The notes: generated by a model not told the origin, from the sequence alone. A DNA stretch of 64,000 nucleotides from Zetaproteobacteria bacterium CG06_land_8_20_14_3_00_59_53 (GCA_002779605.1 PEWE01000012.1:62001-126000), one strand, 5' to 3'. Shown: positions 49,066-54,452, counted from the stretch's first letter. Program-made: numbers and translations.

Positions 49066-49251
49066 ATGTCATATCGTCCACCCATGAACCTTGCCCTCTG
49101 CGCCCTGCTGCTCGTCGCCTGCGGCGAATCCGTGCAGCCGCAGAAAACCGATGCTGTGCGGGCCAAGCCCTATGAGAAAAACGCCATGGATACGGTCGGC
49201 GTGGCGGGCGGGGACGAACAGGTTTCCCCGTTCGGCAAGCCTGCCCATTAG
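49066..49251 (+). CDS. Small lipoprotein
   Basis: A frame of about 61 residues with hydrophobic LALCALLLVACGE, a lipobox-like LVAC, and a short polar remainder ending at TAG 49249-49251. ATG codons at 49057, 49066 and 49084 are all possible; 49066 gives an Arg-containing n-region. Its end overlaps that of the nucleotidyltransferase gene by four bases, convergently. The function is unknown. Confidence 0.55.
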   Translation: MSYRPPMNLALCALLLVACGESVQPQKTDAVRAKPYEKNAMDTVGVAGGDEQVSPFGKPAH

Positions 49252-50396
49252 GTTCTGAACAGGGCCCCGAGCTCTCCCAGCAGCAACACTGCGGCACGCC
49301 ATATCTGGCGCAGACGCTTGCCGAAGAAGCCGCCCTGAGCTGAAGGGTCGGCATCCACCTGAAGACGGATCTCACGACCGGGCCAGATGGTCTGCTTCCA
49401 GAAGATCATCCTGTGCCAGAGATCCGGCTGCATGCGGGCGAACACCCGCTCGGCCAGAAACGGCACCTGTTCGTGCTGCATGAAGCGCCTGAACATGACC
49501 CGCTCACGCCAGTCCATGCGCTGGCGCAGCGCATCGAGCACCCGCTCAGGTACGGGGGCGGAGAGATGCTGCCAGGCATAACTCAACGCATAAAAGCAGG
49601 GACGTTGCAGCGCGTATCTTGCAATCCCGGCCTGCACCTCATCCCAGCCCTGCTCCGCATCGATCCGGCGTGCCAGCAACGCGATATCCAGCAGCCAGAT
49701 CAGTCGCTCGAAGGAATGCTTCATCGCATGGAAACACAGATAGGGTAAGCACACACCCGCATCCGGCAGGATGGCCGGCTCACCGAGCAGCGTCCCCGGC
49801 TGCGAACATCTGAAAAAGTCATCGCCGCGTAACGGGGTGAGCAGGGCCCAGGAGGGAATGCGCTCGATACCCAGCGGCTCGGTATGTACATCCAGCAATA
49901 CCTCGCCGCGCGCGAACAGCATCGGATGGCCCGGCAGACAGAAGAAGCCGGCCTGTTTCAGCAACTCCCAGCACCGCTGCATATCCTGTACGGCGATCAA
50001 CAGGTCGATATCGGTCTGCGGCCTGAGTGTCGGTGGGCTGTAAAGTACATCGGCCACGGTCTGGCCGCGCAGCATCACCACACCGATGCCGGCTGCGGCA
50101 AACAGCTGCAGCAGTTCTTTTGCCGCAGCGCGCAACATCAGGGTATGCGTCATCTGCCAGCGCAGCGGCTGCTCGATACTTGCTGCCCTGATATCCGCAT
50201 CCACATCGCCGCCCTGCTGCCTTAGCGCATGCCACAGGCTGGCCCCGACCCCGTCCCGCCATGCAACATCCCACAGGCCGGCATCCGTCTGCAGGGCCGC
50301 CAGCAGTCCGTCGGTAATCTCCCCGCCGGCCAGCAGATGGATGTATTGAGAACGTGGCGGATAGCCGTTAGCGTTTGTGCCTGTGTGATTCCGCAT
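49248..50396 (-). CDS. Nucleotidyltransferase-like protein (PF14907-type)
   Basis: This 382-residue protein resembles the uncharacterised nucleotidyltransferase family found near HprK-related kinases and PqqD-like proteins, and in some lasso-peptide clusters. A catalytic DxD motif lies in PQTDIDLLIA after a GVVMLRGQTVADVLY segment, as in the pol-beta superfamily; a third acidic strand is in LLDVHTE. It starts 50 bases from the divergent Tat-signal protein gene, which lets both share a regulatory region. It could modify the peptide product or a carrier with a nucleotide (inference). Confidence 0.75.
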   Translation of the reverse strand: MRNHTGTNANGYPPRSQYIHLLAGGEITDGLLAALQTDAGLWDVAWRDGVGASLWHALRQQGGDVDADIRAASIEQPLRWQMTHTLMLRAAAKELLQLFAAAGIGVVMLRGQTVADVLYSPPTLRPQTDIDLLIAVQDMQRCWELLKQAGFFCLPGHPMLFARGEVLLDVHTEPLGIERIPSWALLTPLRGDDFFRCSQPGTLLGEPAILPDAGVCLPYLCFHAMKHSFERLIWLLDIALLARRIDAEQGWDEVQAGIARYALQRPCFYALSYAWQHLSAPVPERVLDALRQRMDWRERVMFRRFMQHEQVPFLAERVFARMQPDLWHRMIFWKQTIWPGREIRLQVDADPSAQGGFFGKRLRQIWRAAVLLLGELGALFRT

Positions 50397-50446
50397 TGCG
50401 GTTGATTATGAAGTGAACAGATGGATGAATCCATCGAGGATTGAAC

Positions 50447-50815
50447 ATGGCCAAGCAGAACGACAACCAGAACCATCAGAAAACATCCGCAAGCGACGAA
50501 CAGGCCCTGCTGGCCCGCCGCCGCCTGCTCAAGATAGGCGCCTATGTGCCGCCAGCCATCGTCGGCATGGCCGTCATCGGCAGCGCATCCAAAGCGTTTG
50601 CTGGCAACAGCAATGCCGGCGGCAATGGTAACGGCCACGCCTACGGCCATAGCATCGGCTCCTGCATGCCATCGGCCTGCCAGCCATGCCTCGACTATGA
50701 CGATGAGGAAGGCAAGGATAAGAATTCGCATAACGCCTACACTCACCAGTCCCACAAGATGCAATGCGATGTCGAGAAGGCCAAGAAGGATTACAACGAC
50801 AAGCACAAGAAGTAA
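50447..50815 (+). CDS. Tat-signal small protein, candidate precursor of the radical SAM cluster
   Basis: ATG 50447 is preceded by GAGGA with six-base spacing; TTG 50441 is possible. The 122 residues hold a Tat-type signal: Arg24-Lys29 (RRRLLK), then a hydrophobic stretch including YVPP at 33-36 and a likely cleavage site after AFA (Ala52). The predicted mature part begins GNSNAGGNGNGHAYGH, has Cys73, Cys78, Cys81 and Cys107, and ends very rich in Lys, Asp and His. Next comes a radical SAM enzyme, a PqqD-like protein and an HprK-like kinase. Y-x-x-P leader motifs are bound by PqqD-like domains in lasso systems, so this protein is the best candidate substrate. It has no recognised homology to me. 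Confidence 0.7.
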   Translation: MAKQNDNQNHQKTSASDEQALLARRRLLKIGAYVPPAIVGMAVIGSASKAFAGNSNAGGNGNGHAYGHSIGSCMPSACQPCLDYDDEEGKDKNSHNAYTHQSHKMQCDVEKAKKDYNDKHKK

Positions 50816-50876
50816 TGGTGACAATGAAGGCGTATCCTGAAGCAGGCACGCCGTTCATTGCCTGCATCGTCAAACA

Positions 50877-52160
50877 TTGTCCTCCCCAACATCACCCTTA
50901 AGCCGATTCGCAAACGAGCCGGGCATCCTGCATCTGCCGGATGGCGGACTTGTGCTCTGCGAGCAACAGGGCGATGACATCCGGCTGCGCGACCTGCACA
51001 GCGGCGACAACATCTTGTTCAGCGGGGTTTTTGCGCAGCGTCTGGCAGAACATTTGAACGACCCGGCGGACATTCCCTTCCCGTCCCTCGGGCCCGTGGC
51101 CGAACGTCACCCGTGGCTTGCACAGCTACACAGGGCCGTGACCCCTTCAGCATCCAACATCCTGCTGGGCAGCGGGTTGGGCATGCTGTTCATCGAACTG
51201 ACCGATCAGTGCAACGAGAGCTGTATCCATTGCTATGCCGAATCCTCGCCGCAGCGCTCGGCCCGCCTGAGCCGCGAGGAGATCCTGCGCGTGCTGCAAC
51301 AGGCACACGGACTGGGCAATCCGGCCGTGCAATTCACCGGTGGTGATCCGTTGATCCATCCGGATCTGCTGTTCGCCGTGCAGTCGGCTCGAGAACTCGG
51401 CTACAGTTCCGTGGAGATCTACACCAACGGCTTGGCATTGAACCAACCCCTGCTCGACCGGTTGCTGCCGTATAGCCCGGATTTCTCGTTTTCCGTCTAT
51501 GCACACGATGCGGCGGTGCATGATGCCATCACGCAGACACCGGGCTCGCTCAGCCGCACGATCAAGGCCATGCGCCGCGTGCAACAGGCAGGGCTGGCGT
51601 TGCGCGTCGGTATCATCCTGATGCAGGAGAATCGCGGCATGGAGGATGCCACCTTTGCATTCCTGCAGGACGAGCTCGGACTGCATGCCTCGCAGATGGG
51701 GCTTGATATGGTGCGCTCCACCGGTCGCGGCGAATTCATGCCCGACTACCAGCCGGACACCTCCCGGCTGCAACAATACCGCCACAGGGCCGGTTCAGAC
51801 TCAGTGGATAGCGGCTCTGAACGGGGTGCCCAGACAGACATGCCACCATCTGCGCGAAGCCTGCCAACCCGGCGCGGCAAGCTGTGCATCGCAGCAAACG
51901 GCGATGTATTCCCCTGCATCTTTTCCCGGCGCGCACGACTGGGCAATATCCGCGAGCAGTCGCTGGACGATGTACTCGCATCGCTCGACCGGCGCCCGCT
52001 GCCCGGAGCCTTGGAGCAGCGCTGGCAGCAGTGCCGCGAATCCTTGAGTTGCAGCGATTGTCAGGCCATCGCCTACCTGCTCGGCAACGACCGCGAAACA
52101 GGTCAGATTGTCATCCCCATCATGCAGGGAGAAAGCCATGCCGCTACCCGAACATCCTGA
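50877..52160 (+). CDS. Radical SAM/SPASM enzyme
   Basis: This 427-residue protein opens one 4Fe-4S cluster with Cys112-x3-Cys116-x2-Cys119 (CNESCIHC) and has the SAM-binding GGDP at 155-158. The C-terminal SPASM region supplies further cysteines (337, 347, 386, 392, 395) for auxiliary clusters. SPASM enzymes typically make C-C or C-S links or other changes in peptides. The frame opens at TTG 50877 without a clear ribosome-binding site, so the exact start is uncertain. The N-terminal about 100 residues are not part of the standard fold. It overlaps the pqqD-like gene by 23 bases, which supports one function. Confidence 0.85.
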   Translation: MSSPTSPLSRFANEPGILHLPDGGLVLCEQQGDDIRLRDLHSGDNILFSGVFAQRLAEHLNDPADIPFPSLGPVAERHPWLAQLHRAVTPSASNILLGSGLGMLFIELTDQCNESCIHCYAESSPQRSARLSREEILRVLQQAHGLGNPAVQFTGGDPLIHPDLLFAVQSARELGYSSVEIYTNGLALNQPLLDRLLPYSPDFSFSVYAHDAAVHDAITQTPGSLSRTIKAMRRVQQAGLALRVGIILMQENRGMEDATFAFLQDELGLHASQMGLDMVRSTGRGEFMPDYQPDTSRLQQYRHRAGSDSVDSGSERGAQTDMPPSARSLPTRRGKLCIAANGDVFPCIFSRRARLGNIREQSLDDVLASLDRRPLPGALEQRWQQCRESLSCSDCQAIAYLLGNDRETGQIVIPIMQGESHAATRTS

Positions 52161-52425
52161 AAAGATCGCCAACCTGAGCAGCGAAGAACTGGAAGGACTG
52201 GATGAAGTCATCTATGTCCGTCCGGATACCGGTGCCAGCTTCTCGCTGAACCTGACCGCAGCGGCGGTACTCGATCTGTGCGACGGGAAGCGCAGCCGGA
52301 CCGATATCGCCGGTATCATTGCCGGAGGTACCGGCGGGGGAACAGACATGACCCGCGTTTGTGATGATGTGGATACCATTCTGAAACAGTTCGTCGATTG
52401 CGGCCTGATCCGCGCCGCTGACTGA
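52138..52425 (+). CDS. PqqD-like peptide chaperone (RRE)
   Basis: This 95-residue PqqD-family protein is expected to be a winged-helix RiPP recognition element that binds a leader peptide and hands it to the radical SAM enzyme. It contains LDEVIYVRPDTGASFSLN, then AAAVLDLCDGKRSRTDI, typical of PqqD-like proteins in HPr-related cassettes. The start ATG 52138 lies within the end of the radical SAM gene and follows a GGGAGA ribosome-binding stretch. It is followed after 25 bases by the HprK-like gene. Confidence 0.82.
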   Translation: MPLPEHPEKIANLSSEELEGLDEVIYVRPDTGASFSLNLTAAAVLDLCDGKRSRTDIAGIIAGGTGGGTDMTRVCDDVDTILKQFVDCGLIRAAD

Positions 52426-52450
52426 ACAGCTGCCCGCAAGCAAGCCATCC

Positions 52451-53305
52451 ATGCCCGTCACGGACCTGCTGATCGCCGGCCTGAGCATCCGCATCAGTTG
52501 CTCCGCTCAGGCATGCAGCGAGGGTATCGCCGCACTCACCGCGCTGTTCGAGCGAGCTGCATTCAATGGCGAAGCGGATCTGCGCTACAGCATCGTGCAG
52601 GATAATAATAGTGCGCACCTGTTCTGCAACGGCCAGCATATCTGGGGCAGTGAAGAAGCCGGCGAGGTGGTGGCCGCCTTCGAGTGGGCCCTATACAGTC
52701 GGACGATTGATGCCCTGTTCCCGCTTTATCTCTCCATGCACGCAGCCACGGTCGGGCATCAGGGAACAACCATCACCATCGCCGGACATTCCGGTGCCGG
52801 AAAATCCAGCCTGTGTACCGCGGCCCTGCTGGCTGGAGCCGATTATTTCACAGACGAATACAGCCTGCTCGACAAACAGGGCCGCATCACGCCCTATCCA
52901 CGGGCGTTGCAATGGGGCGGTGAATCCCACCCCGCCTTTCCGCTGCCATGCATGCGCGATTCCGGCCTGTTCGGGGAGGGGCGTTATGACTTCACCGGAC
53001 GCGACGGCCAGCACATCGTCTCCCTGCTCTGGCACCCTGTGCGCCTGGCGCGCGAACCCGCGGCTTTGAAACTGCTGCTGCTGCCACGCTTCGATGCGGG
53101 GGCTTCCGGAGTGGATATGCAGCCGGTGGCGCGCAGTCAGGCACTGATGGAGCTGGCAGAGGAGATGCATCACAAGCTGCCGGTGCTCGAACGATTGCGC
53201 GAGCTGCACCGTCGCATACCGCCCGACACGACTATCTACCGCATCGTGTTTTCCGATGTGCATCGGGCATGGGAACGGGTCGAAAAACTACTCCCGGACT
53301 GCTGA
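52451..53305 (+). CDS. HPr kinase-related ATPase (HprK-related kinase A type)
   Basis: This 284-residue protein carries the HprK-type P-loop GHSGAGKSS (112-120) followed by LCTAALLAGADYFTDEYSLL, where Asp/Glu form the second metal-binding motif. True HPr kinases have an N-terminal DRTGG domain and the catalytic HxxHG; here the N-terminal part is different and there is no HPr gene nearby. Related kinases tailor RiPP precursors in some lasso clusters by phosphorylating a serine, and others form part of the HPr-rel-A cassette with PqqD. The substrate here could be the 50447-50815 protein (inference). Confidence 0.78.
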   Translation: MPVTDLLIAGLSIRISCSAQACSEGIAALTALFERAAFNGEADLRYSIVQDNNSAHLFCNGQHIWGSEEAGEVVAAFEWALYSRTIDALFPLYLSMHAATVGHQGTTITIAGHSGAGKSSLCTAALLAGADYFTDEYSLLDKQGRITPYPRALQWGGESHPAFPLPCMRDSGLFGEGRYDFTGRDGQHIVSLLWHPVRLAREPAALKLLLLPRFDAGASGVDMQPVARSQALMELAEEMHHKLPVLERLRELHRRIPPDTTIYRIVFSDVHRAWERVEKLLPDC

Positions 53306-53309
53306 TATC

Positions 53310-54452
53310 CTACACCCGGCGCGGCAATTGCAGGCTGGCCCCGATACCGAGCAGCGCTATCAGCGCACACACAAAAAAGGCCGCGGAAAAATCAGCGGCA
53401 CCGCCGGCCTGCGTGGCGATCCAGCCGCAGCCCATGATGCCCACGGCATTGCCCATGCCGAAACCGGTGGCTGAATACCATCCCTGAGCGCTGTCGCGAC
53501 GATGTCTCGGTGCCAACCGCTGCACCCAGGTCACGGCATTGATATGGAAGGCCGCGAAGCTCGCCGCATGCAATAGCTGAAGTAGCAGCAACCAGACAAG
53601 CGCAGTCGAAAGCCCCATGCCCAGCCAGCGCAAAGCAGCCAGCAACAGGCAGGCGGACAGCAGCATGGCAGGCGCTGCCGCGGCCATCGGGCGCGAGTAG
53701 CGCCACATCAGCACGATCTCGGCCAGCACACCCAGCACCCAGAACGCACCGATCTGCCAGCCGTTATAGCCGGCCTGCAACAGATACAGGCTGAAGAAAC
53801 CGTAGTAGGCGCCGTGCGAGGTCTGCATGATGAAGCTGGCCAGCAGCAACCAGAGCAGATCGCGCGGCATGCCGTCCTTATGTCCAGCGGATACCCCCGC
53901 CTCCATCTGGCGCTCCGGAAAACCCCTGGCCGAGAAGGCGGTCAGCAGCATCAGTCCCGCCATCCAGTAGGGGAAATCCACTGCCTGACTTTCAGCCAGC
54001 CATAGCCCACCCAGCAAGGAAGCCGCGACAAACCCGATGGAGCCCCAGACGCGGAGGCGTCCGTAGTCGATCAGCGAGGCCTCCGATGCTGCGACCGACA
54101 GACCATCGGTGATCGGCAGAACTGCAGCCCACAGACAACCGAACGCCAGCACCAGCACAGCCAGCACCCAGCCGGGCGAAGCCAGCGGGAAGCATAGAAC
54201 CAGCAAACCGGCAGCCAGTGAGGCATACAAAATAAAGCGCGCCGGGCGCGGATGGGAATCAAGCGCGTAACCCACCATCGGCGGAGCCAGCACACGGGCC
54301 AGCGACAACAGTCCGCCGAATATGCCGATGGTCGCCACATCCATACCGCGTCCGGCGAGATACACCGGAAAAAATGGCAGCAGAACGCCAAGTGCCGCAA
54401 AGTAGGCGGCGTAGAACAGACGGATATGCTGCAGGGAATGATGCGAAACCAT
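53310..54452 (-). CDS. MFS transporter (HcaT/phenylpropionate-like family)
   Basis: This 380-residue membrane protein has about twelve helices and the N-terminal pattern FYAAYFAALGVLLPFFPVYLA of the HcaT-like MFS_1_like subgroup, with the loop-2 region GYALDSHPRPARF. Substrate unknown. It converges on the HprK-like gene with a 4-base gap, so it could export the product of the cluster, but opposite orientation makes it more likely to be separate. Confidence 0.85.
   Translation of the reverse strand: MVSHHSLQHIRLFYAAYFAALGVLLPFFPVYLAGRGMDVATIGIFGGLLSLARVLAPPMVGYALDSHPRPARFILYASLAAGLLVLCFPLASPGWVLAVLVLAFGCLWAAVLPITDGLSVAASEASLIDYGRLRVWGSIGFVAASLLGGLWLAESQAVDFPYWMAGLMLLTAFSARGFPERQMEAGVSAGHKDGMPRDLLWLLLASFIMQTSHGAYYGFFSLYLLQAGYNGWQIGAFWVLGVLAEIVLMWRYSRPMAAAAPAMLLSACLLLAALRWLGMGLSTALVWLLLLQLLHAASFAAFHINAVTWVQRLAPRHRRDSAQGWYSATGFGMGNAVGIMGCGWIATQAGGAADFSAAFFVCALIALLGIGASLQLPRRV

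Follow-up and report, generated by a model that had tools for sequence, protein, structure and literature searches.

Introduction

Among the described systems closest to the locus reported here are the linear polyphosphorylated peptides (LPP; Nat Commun 2026, PMC13381572), stated to occur in Bacillota only, whose clusters hold a discrete RRE, an HprK-like kinase and an NTP transferase together with an archaeal-type signal peptidase and an MsbA-like exporter, and whose precursors carry the leader YxxPxVLxHQxIxFETxxS; neither a radical SAM enzyme nor a Tat signal appears in their description (PMC13381572). The paeninodin and pseudomycoidin lasso clusters also have a PqqD-type RRE, a [Y/W]xxPx[L] leader, and tailoring genes for an HprK-like kinase, whose target is a C-terminal Ser, and for a nucleotidyltransferase (NTase); in pseudomycoidin the kinase PsmK phosphorylates and the NTase homologue PsmN is needed for the hexose on the phospho-Ser, and an essential His-Lys-Asp-Asp motif characterizes the lasso kinases (PMC9266682). 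Discrete lasso RREs bind their leaders at the motif YxxPx[L/V/I/F/A] (PMC13381572; PMC7168211), and in LppB, the RRE of LPP, D70 forms a bond with the Tyr of the leader and N33 holds the kinked backbone at its Pro, the N33A substitution almost abolishing leader binding (PMC13381572).

The SynChlorMet cassette (NCBIfam TIGR04248-TIGR04251) brings together PqqD-related, HprK-like and radical SAM/SPASM proteins, and the radical SAM thioether RiPPs (SkfB, CteB, StsB, AlbA) join a radical SAM/SPASM enzyme to a Cys-containing precursor. The MNIO-modified bufferins of Gram-negative bacteria, which also involve DUF2063, have a Cys-rich precursor with a Sec signal in the place of the leader; export-signal leaders are described as rare among bacterial RiPPs, and the natural use of Sec has been shown for bufferins only (PMC12452194). 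Our literature search returned no description of a Tat-signal RiPP leader, and no relevant paper on SynChlorMet, on the combination of HprK, PqqD and radical SAM, or on radical SAM enzymes of Zetaproteobacteria.

Here we describe a set of five genes from a marine zetaproteobacterium of the Mariprofundales type, kin to iron oxidisers, which we read, with a probability of roughly 0.7, as a RiPP-type maturation cassette whose 122-aa precursor has a Tat signal as its leader.

Organization of the locus and comparison with known systems

The window, that is, the whole stretch of 64,000 nucleotides that was analysed, comes from a genome whose closest relative in our set (G001) belongs to the same genus. 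The cassette spans positions 49248-53305, with the NTase gene on the minus strand, divergent from the genes for the precursor, the radical SAM enzyme (rSAM), PqqD and the kinase on the plus strand:

49248..50396, minus strand: PF14907-type NTase, 382 aa (PF14907 106 bits, cut-off 31)
50447..50815, plus strand: precursor, 122 aa, with predicted Tat-type signal and Cys core (no family match)
50516..50560, plus strand: composite leader RRRLLKIGAYVPPAI, residues 24-38 (joins a twin-arginine to YxxPxI at a constant distance)
50660..50689, plus strand: core motif S-CMPSACQPC, residues 72-81 (all 22 aligned precursors keep C78, P80 and C81)
50877..52160, plus strand: radical SAM/SPASM enzyme (PF04055 71 bits, SPASM 36 bits)
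52138..52425, plus strand: discrete PqqD-like RRE, 95 aa (PF05402 37 bits)
52451..53305, plus strand: HprK-related kinase, 284 aa (TIGR04352 62 bits, cut-off 200)

An earlier note on this DNA had claimed such a layout, with the NTase divergent and an overlap of 23 bases between the rSAM and PqqD genes, and the reading frames are found at these positions with family matches that agree; the rSAM start codon, TTG at 50877, is uncertain. Its claim that a transglutaminase-like protease and a lasso cyclase are lacking was also confirmed, as PF13471 (lasso B2-type) is not found in the whole genome and no cyclase lies among the genes adjacent to the cassette. The scan for promoters found none, and that for terminators gave results near chance. 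The MFS gene that adjoins the cassette (53310-54452) was ruled out as its exporter, because it occurs in 38 of the 61 genomes compared, with or without the cassette, and is thus a backbone neighbour.

The cassette is a hybrid-like form of the LPP/paeninodin clusters and the radical SAM thioether RiPPs, and departs from each in a testable defining feature. With LPP it shares the discrete RRE, the HprK-like kinase, the NTP transferase, the YxxPx[V/L/I] leader and, apparently, the RRE contact residues N33/D70; however, its leader is YxxPx[ILV] without the HQ..FET part, neither of the LPP signal peptidase and exporter types is found among the genes of 48.4-55.6 kb, and the radical SAM enzyme and the Tat signal are its own. 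It differs from the paeninodin and pseudomycoidin clusters in having a radical SAM enzyme, in having neither B2 protease (genome) nor lasso cyclase (adjacent genes), and in that the C-terminal Ser is not conserved in its precursors. Against the SynChlorMet families its proteins score far below the curated cut-offs (rSAM 67/400, PqqD 17/100, kinase 17/125), and unlike the thioether RiPPs, whose curated cut-offs it likewise does not reach, it has a Tat-signal precursor, a kinase, an NTase and a separate RRE protein. As for the bufferins, radical SAM and PqqD stand here in the place of MNIO and DUF2063, neither of which is among the adjacent genes. Thus, the view of the earlier note that the combination could not be placed must be qualified by partial precedents (kinase, NTase, RRE and YxxP leader in LPP/paeninodin; rSAM, PqqD and HprK-like protein in SynChlorMet), although the full set does belong to none of the nearest known kinds.

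Cousin clusters occur in Acidobacteria and Lysobacterales (L128:2046-6261, L102:6164-9026, L115:5891-9050, L121:6025-9032; also L098, L100, L103, L106, L117 and L127), with a short Ser-ending precursor (YxKPxFRHExVFETMALACGK...C..NRK.S), an HprK-like kinase, PqqD and radical SAM, an NTase in some, and an S24/S26-like peptidase in L128 and L121, the two checked. Their leader is similar to the LPP motif, restricted to Bacillota according to the LPP paper, where no link with radical SAM enzymes is made (PMC13381572).

Co-occurrence and distribution

The earlier note had staked its hypothesis on the co-occurrence of these genes in relatives, and the hypothesis came through the comparison: in 61 genomes (the source of the window plus 60 relatives), which are kin, so that presence and absence do not count as independent events, the rSAM is found in 21, and the precursor, by profile search, in the same 21/21 vs 0/40 of the others. 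The kinase profile exceeds 300 bits in exactly these 21 genomes, 12 genomes outside them giving weaker HprK-like matches only (up to about 92 bits). The NTase profile is found in 20 of the 21, the remaining one (G037) having a partial gene next to the precursor, where the contig ends, with precursor and rSAM on separate contigs, and it is specific to cassette genomes, barring a decayed remnant in G031, a genome without the rSAM. Gene set, order and strand are kept in about 20 related genomes, and a general feature of RiPP cassettes is present, namely that a small precursor, an RRE and a modifying enzyme are conserved jointly, side by side and in the same 21/61 genomes.

A single-sequence rSAM query of the genome contigs gave no matches, and the rSAM alignment did; with the latter, 84,980 species genomes yielded about 35 zetaproteobacterial loci as well as distant ones in Myxococcales/Kofleriaceae (L080, L083), Deltaproteobacteria (L082, L084, L089) and Planctomycetes (L085, L086), which have PqqD in most cases, the kinase, sometimes the NTase, and precursors of their own. 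Among 399 Pseudomonadota genomes the rSAM is limited to the window's order, save one weak non-cassette match. The match in G061 was ruled out as a member of the cassette (28% identity, with only a second rSAM gene on a short contig). The cassette is, therefore, real and conserved, not a product of chance, and because of the all-or-nothing pattern, the decayed remnant and the recurrence of the set in other phyla, a functional unit is its simplest reading.

The broken NTase of G031 (L144:9835-10365) stands without the other cassette genes, beside an esterase and msrA/msrB-like genes, and in G018, of the same genus, an ATP-grasp gene occupies the corresponding site (L145:6468-7634). In many relatives an ATP-grasp gene lies next to the kinase and convergent with it (for example L065:10223-11419, minus strand; homologues in L052, L053, L058, L059, L062, L064, L071, L075, L079 and L088), and it lies elsewhere in G018, G025 and G037; found in 11 of the 21 genomes that have the cassette and in 0/40 others, and missing from the window's genus, it may serve a further modification in the lineages that carry it.

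The leader and its predicted recognition

In 22 aligned precursors R24, R25, L27, L28, Y33, P35, P36, G40, S72, C78, P80, C81 and C107 are invariant, and the spacing within the composite leader RRx[LF][LM]x4[YW]xxPx[ILVM] is identical in 39 distinct leaders, 30 of them zetaproteobacterial and 9 distant. These loci contain 9,316 further six-frame ORFs, and the motif turns up in a single one of them, the L083 precursor, missed by the profile; another distant ORF, of L085, departs slightly in its leader (RRKVLRLAGWTVPAIL), and the precursor of L060 is truncated by the end of its contig. The features of a Tat substrate are all present, that is, the twin-arginine followed by [LF]L, a hydrophobic stretch, an AxA-like cleavage site, and TatC in the genome. 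A basic residue shortly before the cleavage site is a feature of Tat as against Sec signals, and one precedes the likely site in 34 of 44 precursors. The signal of the precursor is, then, a predicted Tat export signal.

Turning to its putative partner, the only strictly invariant residues in 26 PqqD proteins are N38, G50 and D77. The family profile matches the lasso RREs TbiB1 (3e-9) and TfuB1 (1e-6), and 9x8z_B (2e-4), that is, LppB in complex with its leader; these RREs are reached by the family profile only, since phmmer with the window's PqqD alone against solved structures gave nothing relevant. The Asn and the Asp of the profile stand 37 positions apart, as do N33 and D70 of LppB, and the match between profile and LppB spans equal lengths, from which we infer that N38 and D77 appear to correspond to N33 and D70. 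The recognition of the leader by PqqD, although a prediction from sequence, is thus well supported, the Tat signal probably doubles as a RiPP leader, and one short stretch of the precursor seems to be both export ticket and docking site for the modifying enzymes.

The cysteine core

The core of the window's precursor has four Cys (S-CMPSACQPC and one later Cys), those of other lineages six, or 13-15, and those of the distant phyla C-x-P repeats such as CNPNNCNPNSCNPNPCNP; as the number varies from 2 to 15 across the precursors, a single cross-link pattern cannot fit them all. No phospho-acceptor Ser conserved through all precursors was found. Some loci have two tandem precursor genes with near-identical leaders (L029:7232-8010, L035:10659-11625, L039:5439-6285, L129:7286-7940), and upstream of a planctomycete rSAM gene there are three tandem small precursor ORFs, all with C-x-P cores (L085:4341-4991).

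Tat normally carries folded or cofactor-loaded proteins, and precursors of up to 189 aa, cores with up to 15 Cys, mature parts that would remain in the periplasm, and a cassette without an exporter or immunity gene are what would be expected if these genes matured not a peptide product but a small Tat-exported redox or metal-binding protein, cofactor-bearing or cross-linked, on which rSAM and PqqD would act as in the maturation of quinohemoprotein amine dehydrogenase or mycofactocin. We consider this unlikely, because the distant cores, only 31-44 aa past the leader motif and made of C-x-P repeats, are too small for an ordinary folded protein, and because in lasso and LPP clusters the kinase and NTase genes serve to tailor peptides; it does overlap mechanistically with the reading as a RiPP.

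The putative modifying enzymes

The CxxxCxxC motif of the rSAM (C112/C116/C119) and C347, C392 and C395 of its SPASM region are invariant. Its structure model (pLDDT 85.6) has SkfB, SuiB and CteB as best RiPP-maturase fold matches, and SkfB ranks first in the comparison of sequence profiles; this closeness makes cross-linking of the core Cys the leading guess for its activity, although scores far under every curated NCBIfam maturase cut-off do not allow the chemistry to be assigned by family. The N-terminal ~100 aa, which in the model form strands and then helices, are unsupported as a second PqqD-like RRE (hhalign probability 0.6%), and a viperin/defence reading was ruled out, since the PADLOC hits reflect the shared radical SAM fold alone.

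The resemblance of the rSAM to SkfB and CteB, the several precursors of some genomes and the patchy distribution might also suggest a bacteriocin-like sactipeptide or ranthipeptide secreted against competitors. This seems distinctly improbable, however, as the cassette lacks an ABC exporter, a protease of its own and an immunity gene, and Tat would bring the product to the periplasm only. A Cys-rich periplasmic product, and the lack of exporter and immunity genes, incline us weakly towards metal or redox work as its role, rather than that of a bacteriocin.

In the kinase, of PEPCK/HprK fold (model pLDDT 96.4), H97, S114, G117 and K118 are invariant and D135 and E136 nearly so, position 136 being Glu, not Asp, in most members; the resulting His-Lys-Asp-(Glu) is close to the His-Lys-Asp-Asp of the lasso kinases. 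In the NTase alignment G111, R125, D129, D131 and D169 are invariant. To judge from these residues the catalytic motifs of the two enzymes are intact. The best family of the kinase is TIGR04352 (HPr-rel-A kinase) and HPr is present in the genome, so that kinase, PqqD and NTase might be conceived of as a module of the HPr-rel-A kind, regulatory or linked to polysaccharides, with HPr or something else as its target, next to an unrelated pair of rSAM and peptide; but the match, of 62 bits, is well below the cut-off of 200, all the parts co-occur as a set and recur jointly in other phyla, and the precursor has an RRE motif to which PqqD has matching contact residues, all of which makes this highly unlikely.

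Proposed maturation and export

The suggestion of the earlier note, an exported, Cys-containing peptide modified by a radical SAM enzyme and possibly phosphorylated, stands, as a prediction, as what best accounts for the leader, the Cys core, the relatives of the rSAM and the kinase residues. We infer the rSAM chemistry, the binding of the precursor, the phosphorylation site, the order of export and the function, and the steps of such a maturation could have been: (i) PqqD, as a discrete RRE, would bind the YxxPxI segment inside the Tat signal and pass the precursor on to the rSAM, and while bound it may cover the signal until maturation is done, in the manner of Tat proofreading chaperones; (ii) the rSAM would modify the Cys core, most likely by thioether cross-links from the C-x-P cysteines; (iii) the kinase would phosphorylate a Ser/Thr of the bound or modified precursor, and the NTase would add a nucleotide or sugar to that phosphate, an order suggested by that reported for PsmK and PsmN in pseudomycoidin; (iv) and finally, the release of PqqD would expose the signal, the Tat system would export the product to the periplasm, and signal peptidase I would take off signal and leader in one cut. 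That the cassette has neither protease nor ABC exporter would be explained by Tat and signal peptidase I doing the export and the trimming. A shielding of the signal peptide has been proposed for the bufferins, there with Sec and with other proteins (PMC12452194).

A further step, which we take tentatively and at slightly less than even odds, is to regard the cassette as a separate RiPP class of at least three phyla, in which a fixed segment of 15 residues would be at once Tat signal and RRE-binding leader, and PqqD would tie the work of the rSAM and of the phospho-tailoring enzymes on a Cys-rich core to a proofread export by Tat, no protease or transporter being dedicated to the task. If true, the overlap of leader and Tat signal would offer a direct and testable answer to how exit before finished modification is stopped, and the cassette would add a family of phospho-tailored radical SAM peptides in the poorly cultured marine Zetaproteobacteria, in Myxococcota and in Planctomycetota.
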